This document shows, one piece after another, positions 36,005 to 52,327 of a stretch of DNA of 64,000 nt. A program made the position numbers and the translations under genes. Where the stretch lies: the IMG/VR virus record IMGVR_UViG_3300038701_002052, positions 1 through 64,000 of that record; one strand, 5' to 3'. Positions within the stretch are counted from its first letter, which is position 1; each line of letters begins with the position of its first letter. Under the pieces are notes generated by a model. That model saw only the letters and a list, made by a program, of their open reading frames with translations, was not told the origin of the DNA and searched no databases. The DNA is from a virus.

Positions 36005-36383
36005 TTCTCTTCCTTCTTCTCCTGCCATTGTGCCTTGCCTATCATCGAGAGGTCATACCCGTCCGGGTAGTCGATGATGATCGTCGTTCCTTCCTCTTCA
36101 CCCTTGTGCGTCTTTTCCTGCTCGACCGTGAATCTGATGGACGCTTCTGAGTCATCGTGTATCGCGCCAGCGTAGCACAGGGCGTCGAGTAGAAACTTGC
36201 TTCCACCGAAGGCGGCGTCTTTGTCGAGAAGGCGTTTGCGGCTTTGAACAAAGCAGACAACAGGCAATCCTGCGCGTCCCTCTTCATTCGTGTACGGTCC
36301 GCCCAGTGGGATGTCCTCGAAAGAAGGTCGTTCATCGACGGGGGTAGATAGCCAGGGATACGAATGACGATTCTTGTCGGCAT
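36001..36383 (-). pseudogene. RusA-like Holliday junction resolvase, frameshifted
   Basis: The N-terminal half (IRIPGYLPPSMNDLLSR, HWADRTRMKRDAQ) lies in one frame from the ATG at 36383. The C-terminal half (GGSKFLLDALCYAGAIHDD, then a GEEEGTTIIIDYP ending) lies in the -1 frame. Together they give a RusA-family resolvase with its usual Asp cluster. The crossover is around 36220-36265; no clear slippery heptamer is seen, so mutation or sequencing error is more likely than programmed shifting. The ATG overlaps the helicase stop. Confidence 0.7.
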
Positions 36384-38887
36384 CAGAAGTTCGCCGCTTC
36401 CGCGGTGTTGATGGTTTCTCGGGTTTCAAAACGGGTATGCTTCTTGAAAAAGGTCAGCGGTATCAGGCCGGTCGCGCCATCACGCTGCTTCTCGATCAGG
36501 AGATCAACGGCGTGGACGTCGTCATGGTCGGCACTGTCGGGGCGGTGGAGGAAGCCGATCAGATCCGCGTCCTGCTCGATCGATCCGCTGTTATGGACAA
36601 CTATGCCATTCGTAACGAAATTGTTTGTTCCTGGAACGCTTAGATCGCAAACAGAACACTCACCAGGAACGGCATCCACGCTCCTTAGACGCCCCCAACC
36701 AAGCTCCGAACATGACATATATGGGGAGTTTTTGATCGATTGAATCATGTGGTTTTTAAGAAGCTCCTCCATGGATTTCTTACACACAGACTTAAATCCG
36801 CCTGACTTCCTCTTCTGGAACCTCATGTATCGGTTTCCGGTAATCTCGCTTGCAAGCTCTACGAATATGGATGGCGCTGGGTCTATGTATCTCGGGCTTG
36901 GTGACCTGAGGCGACCAAACCTGTCCAGATTCGAGCAAATCACTTCCATTTTCTCGTTATCCTCAACACACACCCTCACTTCCCATATATCGCTATAGTA
37001 ACCAACCGTTGATCGAATTCCACAGGTAAGCAAAAGCCACGAAACCTGATTGGCAAGTAATTCACTGACGGTGGAGTATTTAGCACACCCCCTAGTAACG
37101 GTTCCGTCCGCTTCCCATAACCCCGAAAGAAGCTCGCGGTGCGATTCGTTTGATGTTCCAAGATAGTCACTTGGTATGAATTTTGAATGAGCGGTGCATC
37201 CGTCTAGCCCTAGGCTCCGAAGCCATGTCATGACAGGGTTTTGGAGACACCCGCTTCTTTTACCGTTGGACAGATATGCGTCAAAAACATTATCGCTCGG
37301 CTGGTTCTTCCTGATGTTCACACTGACACCAAACTCGGACACAGATGCAACCACTTCTTCATGGAGTTCTCTCCTGTATATCAACCCAGGCGTTCCGGAC
37401 ATACTGCCGTTGCCTATCAACCACCCCAGTAGCTTGGCGTGCCTGACGTGGCCTCTGTTAGCATGGGGTATCACCCTTGGCGACGCTATCACATCCCTTC
37501 CCGGTTTAAGCTGATTGACCTGCTTCCACCCTGAACCTGTAAGAACAAGATGTTTTGCGGTCGCTGAAAACGACCCGAATTGAGTGTTGACCCTGAATAC
37601 CTTGTTATACCTCTTTGGGATAAACTCACACTTCCTTATTACAGTGACATCCCTGTCCAGTGAAACAACCCGATCGGGCCGACTCCCAATCCGAACCGGT
37701 CCAGTTGGTGTGTAAACCCACTCCTGCTCCGGAAGACACTCCCGGAGATCGCTCAACCTCGGCTTGCGGTTCTTCTCCTTCTCCACGTCGCGGCTGAGCT
37801 GGCTGAGTGCGATCACCGGGACGTCCAGCTCCTTGCTCATCTCCTTCAGTCCGGACGAGATGATCCCAACCTCCTCGGTCCGGCTCATGTTCTTGCGTCC
37901 GACACCATTGGCAAGCTGCAGGTAGTCGATCAGGATCAACCGGGTCCCGTTCTTCTGCTTCTCACGGCGTGCCCTGGAACGCATCTGGGCGATGGTCAGG
38001 CCGGGGCTGTCGTCGATCATGATCGGGTAGTTGCTCAGCCTGCCGGCCGCGCCCGTCATGCGGACATAGTCCCGCTCCGTGCAGAGACCGTTCCGCAGAT
38101 CCATCATGTTCACCCGAGCCATCGACAGCACCACCCGCTGGATCAGGTTGCCCTTGCTCATCTCGAGTGAGAACACATGGCAGTGAGACCCCTTCTCCAT
38201 GACCGACTCGACGATGTTCATCGCAAGAGACGTCTTCCCCATCGCCGGCCTCGCGGCGAGGATGTAGAGCTTGCCGGGGTGGAGCCCTCCCGTGATGCGG
38301 TCCAGCTTGCTGAAACCGGTGCTGAGCCCGTTCACGCCACCGTCCGCATGGGTCGCCGCCTCGATGTATTCCAATGCGCTGATGACCTCGTCCTTGATCG
38401 AGAACGTCGATTCCTTGTGGACCGCCTTCCCCACCGACCCGACCCGCTCCTCGATCATGGACACCAGGTCCGACGTGGAAGCCTCCCGGTCGTCGATCTT
38501 TTCCGTGATCTCCGCCACCGCCGACCTGAGGTCGCGCCTCACCCAGCAGTCCACCACCATGTTCAACCAGTACTTCAGGTTGAGCGCCGATGGCACCGAA
38601 TCCAAACACTCGCTCAGATAGACGATCCCGCCGACCTGCGAAAGCAACGAGGATCCCAGCATCTCAGCGACCACCGTCTCCAGAGAGACCGGCTTGCCCG
38701 CCCTGCTCATCCTCTGGAGCAGCTTGAACAGCTCCTTGTGGCGGATGTCGAACATCAGCTCGGCCGGGTCGGGGTGGACCGCCTCCACCTGGGCCATGCA
38801 CATGCCGCAATCCAGGATCAGGCAGCCGATCAACGCACGCTCGGCATTCTCGTTGTGAGTGGGGGGAGATGTTGCTTCTTTTGACAT
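36383..38887 (-). CDS. dnaB: DnaB-type replicative helicase with intein
   Basis: 834 residues. The extein (1-383 plus 767-834, 451 in all) is a full-length DnaB: N-terminal domain from ENAERALIGCLI, Walker A AARPAMGKTS (211-220), Walker B RLILIDYLQL and a C-terminal SGSIEQDADLIGFLHRP. An intein interrupts DLRE/SGSIEQ, a known DnaB insertion site. The protein would unwind DNA at the phage fork. A resolvase, a replication protein and an SSB-like gene lie in the same operon. Confidence 0.93.
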   Translation of the reverse strand: MSKEATSPPTHNENAERALIGCLILDCGMCMAQVEAVHPDPAELMFDIRHKELFKLLQRMSRAGKPVSLETVVAEMLGSSLLSQVGGIVYLSECLDSVPSALNLKYWLNMVVDCWVRRDLRSAVAEITEKIDDREASTSDLVSMIEERVGSVGKAVHKESTFSIKDEVISALEYIEAATHADGGVNGLSTGFSKLDRITGGLHPGKLYILAARPAMGKTSLAMNIVESVMEKGSHCHVFSLEMSKGNLIQRVVLSMARVNMMDLRNGLCTERDYVRMTGAAGRLSNYPIMIDDSPGLTIAQMRSRARREKQKNGTRLILIDYLQLANGVGRKNMSRTEEVGIISSGLKEMSKELDVPVIALSQLSRDVEKEKNRKPRLSDLRECLPEQEWVYTPTGPVRIGSRPDRVVSLDRDVTVIRKCEFIPKRYNKVFRVNTQFGSFSATAKHLVLTGSGWKQVNQLKPGRDVIASPRVIPHANRGHVRHAKLLGWLIGNGSMSGTPGLIYRRELHEEVVASVSEFGVSVNIRKNQPSDNVFDAYLSNGKRSGCLQNPVMTWLRSLGLDGCTAHSKFIPSDYLGTSNESHRELLSGLWEADGTVTRGCAKYSTVSELLANQVSWLLLTCGIRSTVGYYSDIWEVRVCVEDNEKMEVICSNLDRFGRLRSPSPRYIDPAPSIFVELASEITGNRYMRFQKRKSGGFKSVCKKSMEELLKNHMIQSIKNSPYMSCSELGWGRLRSVDAVPGECSVCDLSVPGTNNFVTNGIVVHNSGSIEQDADLIGFLHRPDSADHDDVHAVDLLIEKQRDGATGLIPLTFFKKHTRFETRETINTAEAANF
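36590..37738 (-). mobile_element. DnaB intein with LAGLIDADG-type endonuclease
   Basis: 383 residues from Cys1 (CLPEQEWVYTPTGPV) to the C-terminal VVHN followed by Ser, the canonical splice junctions. The middle carries two dodecapeptide-like helices: LLGWLIGNGSM and LLSGLWEADGTV. The first has Asn where the catalytic Asp is expected, so cleavage may be weak or lost. Splicing residues look intact. Confidence 0.9.
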
Positions 38888-40689: not shown

Positions 40690-41373
40690 TCAGAATGGGA
40701 CCTCGTCGTCATCAATCGGTGGCTGTGGTGAGGTTCGAGCCTTGGGGTCCGGACCTGCAGCACCCTCGCCGAGAAACGCCTTGTACTCGTCCGATTCCCT
40801 GATCGTGTTCTGAACCCACTCCGGCATGTCGTCAGGGAAGACGCCGCCGTTGTCCGTGATGTCGGTGATGGAATACATCCTCGACTTGTTGACCTGGGGT
40901 GGAACCTCCGTGCCCTTCATCAGGCTGGAGATGTTGATGATCTCCTCGGTCTTCCGCATCGTTCCGTCACGGCCCTTGAACTCCTTGTGGCCGATCGTGA
41001 TCTGACACGACTTCCCGAGCACGGCGCTCAGCTTGAACGCCATCGCCTCCTCCTCGGTCATCTTCTTGCCGCGCCACGAATCCAACGCCTTCCGGAGATT
41101 CGCCTTCGGGTTGGTGGAGAGCCGGTATCGCTTGCTGACAGCCTTCGGAAGCGTGACCACCTTGCCGTCCTCCCCTTCCTTGTCGAAGGTCTCGTGGGGC
41201 AGCTCCCAGGAGATGACGATCTGATGGTTCTCATCGTCGGCACCGGTGCGTTCGTTGGTGTACCACCTGGTCCCGATGTCAAAGATCGCGTAACAGGTCG
41301 CCAGGTAGGTTCCCTCCGGGACCGGCTCGAAACCGCCAGCCCCGCCCTTGTTGGTTGCAATGATGTCACTCAT
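40690..41373 (-). CDS. SSB-like protein, DUF669-type
   Basis: 227 residues. The N-terminal PEGTYLATCYAIFDIGTRWY and RYRLSTNPKANLRKALDSW fit the DUF669 family of phage proteins. A flexible Pro-rich region ends in DDDEVPF, the acidic tip used by bacterial SSBs to dock partners. It probably coats single-stranded DNA during replication. Confidence 0.7.
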   Translation of the reverse strand: MSDIIATNKGGAGGFEPVPEGTYLATCYAIFDIGTRWYTNERTGADDENHQIVISWELPHETFDKEGEDGKVVTLPKAVSKRYRLSTNPKANLRKALDSWRGKKMTEEEAMAFKLSAVLGKSCQITIGHKEFKGRDGTMRKTEEIINISSLMKGTEVPPQVNKSRMYSITDITDNGGVFPDDMPEWVQNTIRESDEYKAFLGEGAAGPDPKARTSPQPPIDDDEVPF

Positions 41374-41627
41374 GCGCTTGGAGCGGTTTGACTGGTTGCC
41401 TTGCCGGGGAGCTTCCCACCCATCCAGACACGGACGGTTCCCTTGCCCTTGACCGGACGCGTGCTTGTCTGGTGGCCACGGCCGTTGATCGCCGAGCGCA
41501 GCCCGTTGACCTTCTCCGCCTCCACCTCGACCGAATCACCCGCCTTCATCTGCGTCGCCAGAAGTGTCATCTGGCCCCGAGGTTCGGGGAGTATCCCGCT
41601 TTCTATTGTATATGCTGTTTCACTCAT
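41370..41627 (-). CDS. Unknown small protein
   Basis: 85 residues: MKAGDSVEVEAEKVNGLRSA in the middle, then a basic region with VRVWMGG. Coupled by ATGA overlap to the SSB-like gene, so possibly a DNA-binding accessory. Confidence 0.6.
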   Translation of the reverse strand: MSETAYTIESGILPEPRGQMTLLATQMKAGDSVEVEAEKVNGLRSAINGRGHQTSTRPVKGKGTVRVWMGGKLPGKATSQTAPSA

Positions 41628-41652
41628 CGTGCTTGTGCTTGTTGTTTTCTCT

Positions 41653-41871
41653 TCAGACCGTGATCGCCTTCTGAACCCTCAGAAGCTCGTTCAACGTATA
41701 GTGGATCACCCGTTTGTTGGGCGCGACGGGGTGGGCTCTTCCTGCCTGCCGCAGGAACCGGAGGGTTGATCGGGGGATGCCGATTCTGGCTGCCCCGTCC
41801 CGCTCGTTGAAGAACCCGGCTGGAACTCTTGAGCTGCGGCTCGCTCCGACCTCTCTTTGTTGAGTCTCCAT
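41653..41871 (-). CDS. Excisionase-like small DNA-binding protein
   Basis: 72 residues with GGAGGAGGAAG just upstream. ERDGAARIGIPRSTLRFLRQAG reads as a winged helix/helix-turn-helix like MerR or Xis proteins. An alternative upstream ATG at 41909 gives an extra basic N-terminus in another frame and is not preferred. Could regulate early genes or excision. Confidence 0.5.
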   Translation of the reverse strand: METQQREVGASRSSRVPAGFFNERDGAARIGIPRSTLRFLRQAGRAHPVAPNKRVIHYTLNELLRVQKAITV

Positions 41872-43471: not shown

Positions 43472-43735
43472 TTGTTGACCCGTTTTGAGGCCGAACTCGC
43501 TTCAATTCACTCCAATTCCTCACTCGCGCCGAATCCGGCTTTCGCCCGTAACTCGCTGAAACACCAACCCGTTAAGCCACTTCCATCACCCCACCCACCA
43601 ATCCCCGTCCCGGTTTCCGGAACCGTAGGTTGTGGGTTCGATCCCCGCCCCGCGTACCACTCCCCACCAAGGACTTGCGAAGATTCTGGAAGATGGCTAA
43701 AACTCACCCGTTGACTGATTGTTGACCCGTTTTGA
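43463..43735 (+). other. attP-like region with tRNA-Arg(CCG) 3' half
   Basis: Identical 26-base direct repeats (43463-43488 and 43710-43735, each with two GTTGAC boxes) flank a tRNA 3' half at 43611-43659. That half has an anticodon stem (CGGT/ACCG), loop TTCCGGA with anticodon CCG, variable loop, T-arm GTGGG-TTCGATC-CCCGC, acceptor strand CCCGCGT, A and CCA. No 5' half is present. A tRNA-derived core next to an integrase, with arm-type repeats on both sides, is the standard attP plan. Confidence 0.75.
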
Positions 43736-43748
43736 ACCAGAAGCCAAC

Positions 43749-44867
43749 ATGCTGAAGAAATTCAAGACCCGTATCGGGAAGGAAACCGTTCGAGGTGTGA
43801 AGAGGTTCACACTGAATACCACTGACCCGTCAGGGAAGCGGACTCGGAAGTTTTTCAACTCACTCAAGGAGGCCAGGGACGCTGAGAAGCTCCTGTGGCT
43901 GGACTACAACGAACACGGTGCGCGTGACCTCAACCTGTCCCACGAGGACCGCCTGAGATTCGTCACGCTCGACCGTCAATGCAGGAAGGTGGGGACCACG
44001 CTCGAGAAGGCTGTTGAGATCGGCCTGGGCTCGTTGGTGGCCCCGGATCCGATCGCCCTCAAAGAGGGCATGGACGCCTACATCCAGTCGAAGGTCAACC
44101 GGCGCTGCAGGCCCCGCACCGTCCAGACGGTCCTGTCCAGGATCCGGCAGCTCGTGGAGATGATGCCGAAGGATGCCATGTGCAGCGACGTCACACCGGC
44201 CATGCTGCGAGACATGGTCCACCGGAACGGCTGGAGCCCCATGACCATGAGGAACCGCATGGTCGAGTACGGCGCATTCTTCAGGTGGCTCGTCCGGAAC
44301 GCCCACATGGCAAACAACCCGGCCGAGCACATGGACAGGATCATTGTCGACCCCACCCCGCCTCGCGTCCTGACACCTGAAGAGCTTCGAAGGCTGCTTG
44401 GTTGGTGCTGGGAGAACGACCGCGGCATGGCCGGCTGGATCGCGATCGGGGCGTTCTGCGGAATACGACCAGCCGAGATCAACAGGCTCCCACCACAAAA
44501 CATCGATCTGAAATCGAAGGTGGTCCTGGTGGAAAGCACTAAGATCAGGGACAACCGTTACGTCGACATCCCTGACAATGCGATCCCGTGGCTAGGCGAA
44601 TTTTCAACAAAGGGATCAAGGAAGCGGTTCGAGAAGGCACGAAGAGAGACCGGGTTGCTCGATGACTGGCCACCTGACGGACTCAGGAACTCGTGCGCGA
44701 GCTACTACGCGGCGCTGTGGGGTGTCGACAAATCAAAGGATCGCCTGGGCCACAAGGGCGACTCCAGGACGTTCTTCGTCCACTACCGAGTGCCCGTGTT
44801 GAAGGATGCGGCAGAGGAATGGTTCAGGATAACACCGGAAGCGACAGGTTGCCCCATTACCACCTAA
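43749..44867 (+). CDS. int: Tyrosine recombinase integrase
   Basis: 372 residues from the ATG at 43749; a TTG at 43719 inside the repeat is an alternative. The N-terminal arm-binding region is followed by a core-binding domain (RPRTVQTVLSRIRQLVEMMP) and the catalytic domain with GIRPAEI (Arg), DGLRNSCASYY (Arg; the usual first His is Asp), LGHKGDSRTFFVHY (His and nucleophile Tyr). It should recombine the adjacent tRNA-Arg core with the host gene. Confidence 0.88.
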   Translation: MLKKFKTRIGKETVRGVKRFTLNTTDPSGKRTRKFFNSLKEARDAEKLLWLDYNEHGARDLNLSHEDRLRFVTLDRQCRKVGTTLEKAVEIGLGSLVAPDPIALKEGMDAYIQSKVNRRCRPRTVQTVLSRIRQLVEMMPKDAMCSDVTPAMLRDMVHRNGWSPMTMRNRMVEYGAFFRWLVRNAHMANNPAEHMDRIIVDPTPPRVLTPEELRRLLGWCWENDRGMAGWIAIGAFCGIRPAEINRLPPQNIDLKSKVVLVESTKIRDNRYVDIPDNAIPWLGEFSTKGSRKRFEKARRETGLLDDWPPDGLRNSCASYYAALWGVDKSKDRLGHKGDSRTFFVHYRVPVLKDAAEEWFRITPEATGCPITT

Positions 44868-49349: not shown

Positions 49350-49570
49350 AACCAAACCCTCTCAGAACCCACATCATCCAGACCGTCCAACAAAACGACC
49401 TCCAACTCTCAACAGATGAACTCATCTCCAAAACCACCAACCACTTCCGCAACGAATACCCCCAAAGAACCATCACAGCCGCCATCCAGGAACTCTTCCA
49501 GGAACGCATCTTCTGGATCCGCAGAAACAAGGTCGCACTCGTCCACGGTGCCACACAGAAGGCTGAGTGA
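49346..49570 (+). CDS. Small HTH-like protein
   Basis: 74 residues: LSTDELISKTTNHFRNEYPQ and TITAAIQELFQERIFWIRR suggest a winged helix. Target unknown. Confidence 0.5.
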   Translation: MKPNPLRTHIIQTVQQNDLQLSTDELISKTTNHFRNEYPQRTITAAIQELFQERIFWIRRNKVALVHGATQKAE

Positions 49571-49954: not shown

Positions 49955-50215
49955 CCCACCTCAACATGCCATCAAAATCGCTCAGAATGGCCCCTGTAAG
50001 CCGTTTTGCAACCAATGGGCGAGAACGGTGGGGCGACGGCACAGAGAGGGCACCAGGGGGGCGGGCAGAGGGCGTTAAGAATGGTTTTGACGGAATGCCA
50101 CGAAGTTTAGAACGACCACATATAACATTATGCGACCTCGTCAGGCCTTCCCCCCAATGCCCCCCACCCCGGTGGTTGAGGCTCCTGGTCGACTCCTCTG
50201 ACAATGTTAACCAAA

Positions 50216-51090
50216 ATGGGTTAGGTCACACGTTTCTATAAGTCGTTGATTATCAACGGTTACCTACAGAATTGTGGGAAAATTGCTAGCAGTTGGGCGG
50301 TCAATCGTTACTAAAACAGGCCGGACCTATCCCCCTACTAAGTGTTCGAAATGCGGTTCGGGAACACGGTAAATGCAAAGCGTTTGCAATTCCCAACAAG
50401 CGCGGACGGTGAAGCGGTTTCGTTCTGACTACGCTTGGTTTCCATGAAACCTTCTGGGTTGTAGCTCTTGACGACTCCCCTTTGACGGTGACACGGTGAT
50501 CAAAGATCCTGCGTTGCTGAATGCGGACCCTTCCGTATCCCTCTGGTTCGCAGAGGTTTCGGTTTGAGAATTCCGCAGCGGTGTAGGCCTGATGCCGGCC
50601 TAGCTGGATCGACTCCAGCCATCAGAAGCCCCAGCGAAACAATTGGGCGCGTATCTGAGTGACCCCTACCGCATGGCAGAAGTGTGAAGGAAGCACGAAC
50701 GAGAGACGCGCTTATAGCATGGCGCGGCGGGGTGCGCACCCTTGCTTTCGGACGGTGAGCCAGCTAACGGGCAAACAAATTTGGTGGAAGCCTGCAATGA
50801 AACCGGGCAAGCGGAGTGCTTGAAACCTTGGCATTGTGGGTTGATTAGGTGGGCGCGTTGTGCGTCGCCACACTGGGGGAATGGTCCCCGCAATCCCTTG
50901 TGATGGACAAGGAAAGGCACGTCAGTTACAGCGGGCGAGGTTTTACGTTGTGGCAGTGTGCGTTGGTTAATGGAATTGGACCGGTATTGATTCTTTGAAT
51001 CGTTATCGGTCCATGTCCATTTGTGGTGCTCTGCGGGGCATTACAAATGGGCAATACGTCCAGACGTTGCCGGTCGTGATACCGGCTTTT
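50216..51090 (+). ncRNA. Large structured RNA candidate 2 (~0.87 kb)
   Basis: The longest gene-free stretch in the window, dense in short perfect stems: TGCAAA-GCG-TTTGCA (~50374); CCTCTG/CAGAGG (50540/50551); TAGGCC/GGCCTA (50584/50597); GCTGGA/TCCAGC (50603/50614); CAAGC/GCTTG (~50808); CCTTGT/ACAAGG (50896/50907); nested GGACCG/CGGTCC and GATTC/GAATC (50978-51012); CCATTTGT/ACAAATGG (51017/51043); and terminal GCCGGT/ACCGGC (51069/51081) followed by TTTT. The only frames on either strand are short and unlike proteins. TATAAG at ~50237 could be a -10 box. GOLLD-like giant phage RNAs are the nearest concept; relation untested. Confidence 0.65.
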
Positions 51091-51104
51091 GAATGGGAGA
51101 TGCT

Positions 51105-51611
51105 ATGAACACCACACTACAGTTACGGAATGAATCCGCCATCGCGATCAGTGACAACCCTGTTCCTGGGTGTAACCGGTTGGTTGATGCGGTTCGCGAT
51201 AGGTTTGAAGACGGGGCTATGTATCGTGCTGGCAAGGCGTCGGATACGGTGACGTTCATCACGAAGAAACATTACGGGGAGATGTACGGGTTGAAGGGCG
51301 CGGCTTTGAACAAGGCGCATCGCGAGTATCTGGGGCAGTTTCGCAGGGCGACTGCTCAGTTCATCGGCGGCGAGGTTGCTGCGGGGAACATCCTGTTGCA
51401 TGGAATGACAGTGAATCGTAAGACGGGCAACGGCACACTCAAGATTGCTGATGCGAAGGTGGTAGCTGCTCGTGACGCGAAGGCGTCGAGAAGGGGCCGG
51501 AAGGCTGACAAGGTGACGACGGCCGTTGACGTTGCCCGTAACTCTGGGTTGACTGACGAGCAGATTGTGGCGCTGTTGGAAGGTGTGAAGGGGAGCGAGG
51601 TGGGCAAGTGA
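51105..51611 (+). CDS. Unknown protein, first gene of right operon
   Basis: 168 residues from MNTTLQLRNESAIA, with the ribosome site GGGAGA. HYGEMYGLKGAALNKAHREY is the most protein-like region; a basic stretch (KASRRGRKADK) and a helical end follow. Not recognised. It follows the RNA candidate closely. Confidence 0.55.
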   Translation: MNTTLQLRNESAIAISDNPVPGCNRLVDAVRDRFEDGAMYRAGKASDTVTFITKKHYGEMYGLKGAALNKAHREYLGQFRRATAQFIGGEVAAGNILLHGMTVNRKTGNGTLKIADAKVVAARDAKASRRGRKADKVTTAVDVARNSGLTDEQIVALLEGVKGSEVGK

Positions 51612-52327
51612 GTGGCCTTGTATTGACCCGGCAGCATGCGGCCAAGGTGGTCAAGGTGGTCGGTGCCGGTCTGTGTTCCGGTGTTGGTGTTCCAGAGCCG
51701 GGGAAGATGTGTGTTGAGGCGGCGGTTTGCTATGCGCTGGGGTTGCCACACGGCGATGATCCGGAGTGCGTGGGGAGTGCTGTTCGTGCTGCGAAGATCG
51801 CCCTGAACGATTTGGCTTGGAGCAGTGACAAGGCGAGGGGTTTGGGAATGATGAAGGTGGCTGTTGCTCAGCTTGGTAGCGATCAGATTGACCAGGTTGA
51901 GTTTTCGAAGCGGCTTGTGTTGAAGCAGGTGAACACGATTCTCGCCGACATGCTGGAAAGTTGTGGAATGTCTCGTGAGGCTGAGTTATGCCGGGTTGCC
52001 GTCACGCTAGAAGCGGCGAGGTCGGCGGCGGAGTCGGCGGCGTGGTCGGCGGCGGAGTCGGCGGCGTGGTCGGCGGCGAGGTCGGCGGCGAGGTCGGCGG
52101 CGGAGTCGGCGGCGGAGTCGGCGGAGTCGGCGGCGTGGTCGGCGGCGGAGTCGGCGGCGTGGTCGGCGGAGTCGGCGGCGTGGTCGGCGGCGGAGTCGGC
52201 GGCGTGGTCGGCGGAGTTGGGAGATGCTGTCTTGGTGCGCTTTGCCGGCCTCATTCTTGAGGTGTTGGTTGAGCTGGATTCCCCCGGCGTTCAATGGCTG
52301 CATTTGTGCGAGGAGGTGGAGCCATGA
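51608..52327 (+). CDS. Protein with Ser-Ala-Ala-Trp/Glu repeats
   Basis: 239 residues. Residues ~1-125 form a globular, helical domain (PEPGKMCVEAAVCYALGLPH). Residues ~135-203 are tandem SAAESAAWSAA/SAAR units that would make a long Ala-rich helix. A short hydrophobic C-terminal segment follows. Phage proteins with such repeats are known, without known role. Confidence 0.6.
   Translation: MSGLVLTRQHAAKVVKVVGAGLCSGVGVPEPGKMCVEAAVCYALGLPHGDDPECVGSAVRAAKIALNDLAWSSDKARGLGMMKVAVAQLGSDQIDQVEFSKRLVLKQVNTILADMLESCGMSREAELCRVAVTLEAARSAAESAAWSAAESAAWSAARSAARSAAESAAESAESAAWSAAESAAWSAESAAWSAAESAAWSAELGDAVLVRFAGLILEVLVELDSPGVQWLHLCEEVEP
52009..52217 (+). repeat. GC-rich tandem repeats
   Basis: Mixed 9-, 12- and 24-base units built from GCGGCGGAGTCG and GCGGCGTGGTCG within the gene at 51608. 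Length is probably variable by slippage. Confidence 0.85.

Follow-up and report, generated by a model that had tools for sequence, protein, structure and literature searches.

What occupies the stretch at 50,216-51,090 in front of the rightward early genes of an uncultured phage, where the preliminary description saw nearly 900 nt without a credible gene, more than ten perfect local stems and, at the end, a GC hairpin with TTTT? The window analysed here comprises the first 64,000 bases of an uncultured viral record that is 77,266 bases long; its phage is labelled G000 in the comparisons. The terminase and structural genes of this phage have only distant relatives among the sequences searched, the best-matched terminase, portal and capsid proteins sharing about 40% identity with their counterparts on other uncultured phage contigs, and for its early genes no close relatives were found among viral contigs. 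The stretch is probably the gene of a structured non-coding RNA of about 0.9 kb at the head of the rightward early operon. Besides its stems, it is the conservation of the locus as such in a phage lineage that now makes a large structured non-coding RNA the best reading of the stretch. The features on which the argument draws are the following.

50,103-50,126, + strand: promoter-like block, AAGTTTAGAA ... TATAAC (in relatives GGAAAGTTNAGAA ... TATATA); profile match, with the spacing to the C-tract as in relatives.
50,150-50,170, + strand: C-tract element CCCCCCAATGCCCCCCACCCC; position kept in relatives, ahead of the non-coding stretch.
50,204-50,269, + strand: leader, consisting of a hairpin TAACC/GGTTA, then TAAGTCGTTGAT, then a second hairpin GTTGATTATCAAC; covariance model and covariation.
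50,204-51,090, + strand: proposed large structured non-coding RNA; no coding potential, excess of stems, fold z of -3 to -4, leader and synteny.
50,486-50,519, + strand: predicted hairpin of 14 bp; pair probability 0.98 (partition function).
50,789-50,842, + strand: predicted stem of 11 bp around a smaller hairpin (50,808-50,822); partition function.
50,917-50,961, + strand: predicted imperfect hairpin of 15 bp; partition function.
50,977-51,053, + strand: two long predicted hairpins side by side (16 and 18 bp), which make up the strongest local structure, with local z values of -6 to -8 and a pair probability of 0.97-0.98.
51,069-51,090, + strand: weak hairpin like an intrinsic terminator, GCCGGT-CGTGAT-ACCGGC-TTTT; not above chance alone.
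51,105-51,611, + strand: first gene after the stretch, 168 aa; homologous to the gene that comes first behind this block in relative G005.

That the stretch holds no credible gene was borne out. The segment 50,170-51,090 is without coding potential, and no credible gene was found from about 50,170 to 51,104. Measured by the codon usage of this phage, every open reading frame in 50,274-51,090 has a score near zero or below (+1 to -22), against +17 and +18 for the true neighbour genes on the same phage-specific measure; stops are present in all six frames across 50,274-51,090, and a Pfam search of the longer stop-to-stop frames in the stretch returned no match of note. At 50,274-50,372 an in-frame zinc-ribbon motif resembling that of TnpB was considered and rejected, with no Pfam match.

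The stretch has eight perfect Watson-Crick hairpins (at least 6 bp, loop up to 12), compared with 1.9 +/- 1.3 (maximum 6) in 200 shuffles; across 764 windows of the same genome the count is 1.8 +/- 1.5, and just two windows contain eight. The figure of more than ten perfect stems therefore holds only when shorter or imperfect stems are counted. The sole other 875-base window with eight perfect hairpins lies at 40,901-41,775. By partition function, 22 helices of at least 4 bp have a mean pair probability above 0.6. Compared with shuffled sequences, the fold of the whole stretch has z values of -3.4 (20 shuffles), -2.9 and -3.9 in separate runs. This excess is modest and uneven: the last 120-180 nt, with the hairpins of 16 and 18 bp that account for most of it, reach z -6 to -8, and most other 120-nt windows of the stretch are unremarkable. 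The GC hairpin with TTTT is present at the 3' end, though as a terminator it is weak and at chance level, two terminator-like sites being found in the region against 2.4 expected by chance. Taken as a whole, the initial observation of a gene-less, stem-rich stretch that ends in a hairpin was thus confirmed.

The promoter-like block, the double C-tract and the leader hairpin with TAAGTCGTTGAT are common to this phage and about 17 distantly related uncultured phages, and the presence of block and leader ahead of the stretch in many phages is new here. The arrangement seen in many contigs is GGAAAGTTNAGAA, an AT-rich TATATA, the double C-tract, the hairpin and TAAGTCGTTGAT. The double C-tract lies about 50 bases past the start of the box; some contigs have a C-tract followed by a G-tract instead. 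The copy of CCCCCCAATGCCCCCCACCCC listed above is the only one on the + strand of this genome. Since the C-tract was first picked by comparing the window with G041, it was then tested by profiles built without the window's phage. Two such profiles match 50,103-50,262 with nhmmer E-values of 6.5e-4 and 1.4e-4 (about 1.7 million bases searched), whereas a third, made of the upstream part only, could not tell the window copy apart from noise (E 6.2); the evidence hence lies in block and leader together. Other copies of the block are weak in G041 (E 0.45) and G005 (E 0.0085) and partial in G014.

For the leader, the covariance model R1, built from 11 other phages, matches 50,204-50,269 with 31.3 bits and a roughly calibrated E of 8e-6, the runner-up in the record having E 1.5. 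Among 16 phages the leader hairpin shows 27 double-change cells versus 13.4 +/- 3.2 in shuffles, which ignore relatedness, and 80% of its cells are paired versus 28-47% when the partner is slid. Leaving out the window's phage gives 16 double-change cells versus 8.3 in shuffles that likewise ignore relatedness, with 90% paired. Judged by these substitutions the leader is RNA-like, in that pairing is kept while letters vary; in a DNA site recognised by a protein, the letters themselves would more likely be conserved.

Relatives were reached via the terminase, which gave more than 100 loci. One contig, G041, has a kilobase of structured non-coding sequence where its rightward genes begin. By home-made gene calls, a non-coding stretch of 0.6-1.1 kb directly follows the leader in the window's phage and in G041, G042, G014, G018 and G005. 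By the same calls, one gene comes first in G044, G045, G031, G022, G028 and G032, followed by 0.8-1.7 kb of non-coding sequence. Fold z values (15 shuffles each) range from -3.3 to -9.0 in G041, G014, G044, G045, G022, G031, G024, G005 and G030, compared with -1.6 to +1.0 in four coding controls (15 shuffles each); they are weaker, from -2.8 to -0.2, in G018, G012, G032 (-1.7), G028 (-1.1) and G042 (-0.2). The stretches of G044 and G045 align over 1.2 kb with a clear terminator common to both at the end. At -155.7, the energy of their consensus structure is well below that of 20 column-shuffled alignments (-74 to -109), and it contains 57 double-change pairs where the shuffled alignments have 26-43. 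With a profile made from this pair, the 3' third of the stretch was recovered in G031 (E 6e-9). The G042 stretch, used as a query, returned no relative of its own, and the G045 RNA has no match among known phage records. The large gaps that G044 and G045 show near 57 and 63 kb were also considered; they read as integrase genes on the other strand and not as RNA.

Five stretches (G042, G014, G044, G045 and G031) contain an exact TCTTTGA[AC]A versus 0.2 expected from the genomes. We take this site to resemble the boxA antitermination site of rRNA operons, and a boxA-like site would suit long untranslated transcripts. The window has no clear copy.

The window itself is tied to its relatives by position. 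In G005 the block is followed by about 660 non-coding nt and then by a homologue of the window's 51,105-51,611 gene (phmmer E 9e-7, blastp E 2e-4); the portal protein of G005 is the best match to the portal of this phage. As the stretch takes the same place in both phages, that place probably serves the same purpose in each, and the two bodies may have diverged past sequence comparison or been replaced. The window body has no similarity above shuffles to G041, G043 or G005 and no nhmmer match at E up to 1 to the RNA profiles of G044, G045 and G031; a nucleotide search with the window RNA returned nothing in phages, plasmids or terminase-sharing phage contigs. Two leads were rejected: 9-mers common to the window and G041 (GAGACGCGC and others), first taken as homology, are at chance level, and among all viral contigs no match to a pseudoknot-shaped pattern resembles the window RNA beyond the pattern itself. 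Because the window body can be aligned with no relative, its internal helices are without covariation support, and homology rests on leader and synteny. The proposal of a large structured RNA accordingly stands on a locus kept across the lineage and on covariation in the leader and in the RNA body of relatives, though covariation was not obtained in the window's own body.

Does the stretch belong to a known class? GOLLD is a homo-oligomeric RNA cage that is often, though not obligatorily, encoded near tRNA genes, and ROOL has a pseudoknotted core. The GOLLD RNA occurs in phages and prophages, exceeds 800 nt, has ornate local structure and a universally conserved 3' region, and its function, like that of the large non-coding phage RNA ROOL, is unknown (PMC12286853). 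Size, phage setting and the many local stems would fit a diverged GOLLD or ROOL RNA, the window stretch being about 900 nt long with ornate predicted structure, and a putative large non-coding phage RNA as ROOL is. Rfam covariance models of 4227 families gave no match in the window, neither at the gathering threshold nor at E up to 10, which covers GOLLD, ROOL, OLE, raiA, other large Rfam RNAs and group I and II introns; the relatives gave none at gathering level. No tRNA was found in the whole 77 kb record, so that the tRNA island is absent as well. Moreover, the lineage conserves only the promoter-like block and leader, unlike GOLLD, and the window stretch is larger than ROOL. Membership in either class is thereby disfavoured and very improbable. 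The comparison with GOLLD that was made at the outset is thus an analogy in size, setting and ornateness only, in the face of an empty Rfam search, a record without tRNA and no sequence match to known phages, while the accompanying statement that no known class could be matched held for GOLLD, ROOL, OLE and raiA alike. Since no known class matches, a new family is plausible.

Three further explanations have to be weighed. The RNA could be a cis-acting leader of the early operon that controls transcription or translation of the gene at 51,105, with the terminator-like hairpin as attenuator and no function apart from the mRNA. Like the attenuators of early-operon leaders, the window has hairpins and a terminator ahead of the first gene; the terminator-like stem ends just ahead of the Shine-Dalgarno and start of that gene, 14 nt before the start codon, and in G005 a stretch of this kind likewise precedes the homologous gene. 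At nearly 900 nt, however, the stretch is far longer than ordinary attenuators, and in G044, G045 and G031 the structured stretch comes after the first gene and has its own terminator there, which makes a cis-acting leader an unlikely account. Alternatively, the stretch could be a spacer not under selection that follows a conserved promoter and has a few long hairpins at the 3' end; this would explain why the body sequence is not conserved and why most 120-nt windows are ordinary. Yet phage genomes seldom keep a spacer of 0.9 kb, in relatives this position is likewise non-coding, often with strong structure, and the RNA of G044 and G045 is alignable and covarying; we regard a spacer as quite improbable. 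Much the same standing is given to a replication origin or other DNA-level element, made of palindromes, C- and G-tracts and a turn of the GC skew, where transcription, if any, would only prime or open the origin. In support, the cumulative GC skew is lowest at 49,556 in this phage and, inside the stretch of G041, at 67,083, the C-tracts are conserved, and G-rich and C-rich arms lie opposite each other at 50,047-50,163. Against this, iterons or direct-repeat arrays were searched for in the stretch and none were found, the skew turn also follows from the change in gene direction, and the leader hairpin pairs despite letter changes, which fits an RNA but not a DNA site bound by protein.

Under the preferred reading, that of a large structured non-coding RNA, transcription would start from the conserved promoter-like block at 50,103-50,126, and the 5' end of the RNA could fall anywhere from about 50,130 to 50,204. 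The RNA would begin with the conserved leader hairpin, fold into a multi-hairpin molecule and stop at the weak terminator just ahead of the next gene. The locus would be kept across this lineage of uncultured phages while the RNA body diverges too fast for lineage-wide alignment. Most likely the RNA would work as a stand-alone structured molecule, as a scaffold or an assembly in the manner of other giant phage RNAs, and not as a messenger. We read it as a fast-evolving large early non-coding RNA, GOLLD-like by analogy only; its transcription, 5' end, body homology and function are what we infer from the features above.

A bolder proposal, which we put forward tentatively and consider possible, is that of a new superfamily of giant phage RNAs of 0.6-1.7 kb, which would occupy a single early locus preceded by promoter, C-tract and leader, all conserved, and whose bodies would diversify so fast that only locus and leader can be recognised. 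Such diversification might perhaps come from an arms race between the RNA and factors of the host. Only a few giant phage RNAs such as GOLLD and ROOL are known, none of them explained, and the present locus, which many phages carry and Rfam does not contain, is a further one. Its fixed promoter and leader in front of a changing body offer a handle to find such RNAs by position where sequence search fails, and the locus provides a way to ask what early phage RNAs of such size do.

Some minor observations concern the phages themselves. A second double C-tract, CCCCCCCTATAGTCCCCCCC, is common to G044 (about 57,176, + strand) and G045 (63,694, - strand), beside a reverse-strand integrase-like gene. 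The record of the window's phage has a nearly identical direct repeat of about 120 bases at both ends (about 3-128 and about 77,140-77,260), so the genome may be nearly complete, and it encodes two tyrosine integrases (window 43,719-44,867; record 63,474-64,565). Its DnaB-like replicative helicase (window 36,383-38,887, - strand) is interrupted by a probable intein of about 380 aa; the insert carries Pfam Intein_splicing and LAGLIDADG_3 matches, and helicase homology resumes near residue 765. Downstream of the first early gene, window 51,608-52,327 encodes a protein with a long low-complexity repeat of SAAESAAWSAARSA type, specified by GGCGGCG-rich repeated DNA at about 52,000-52,220.
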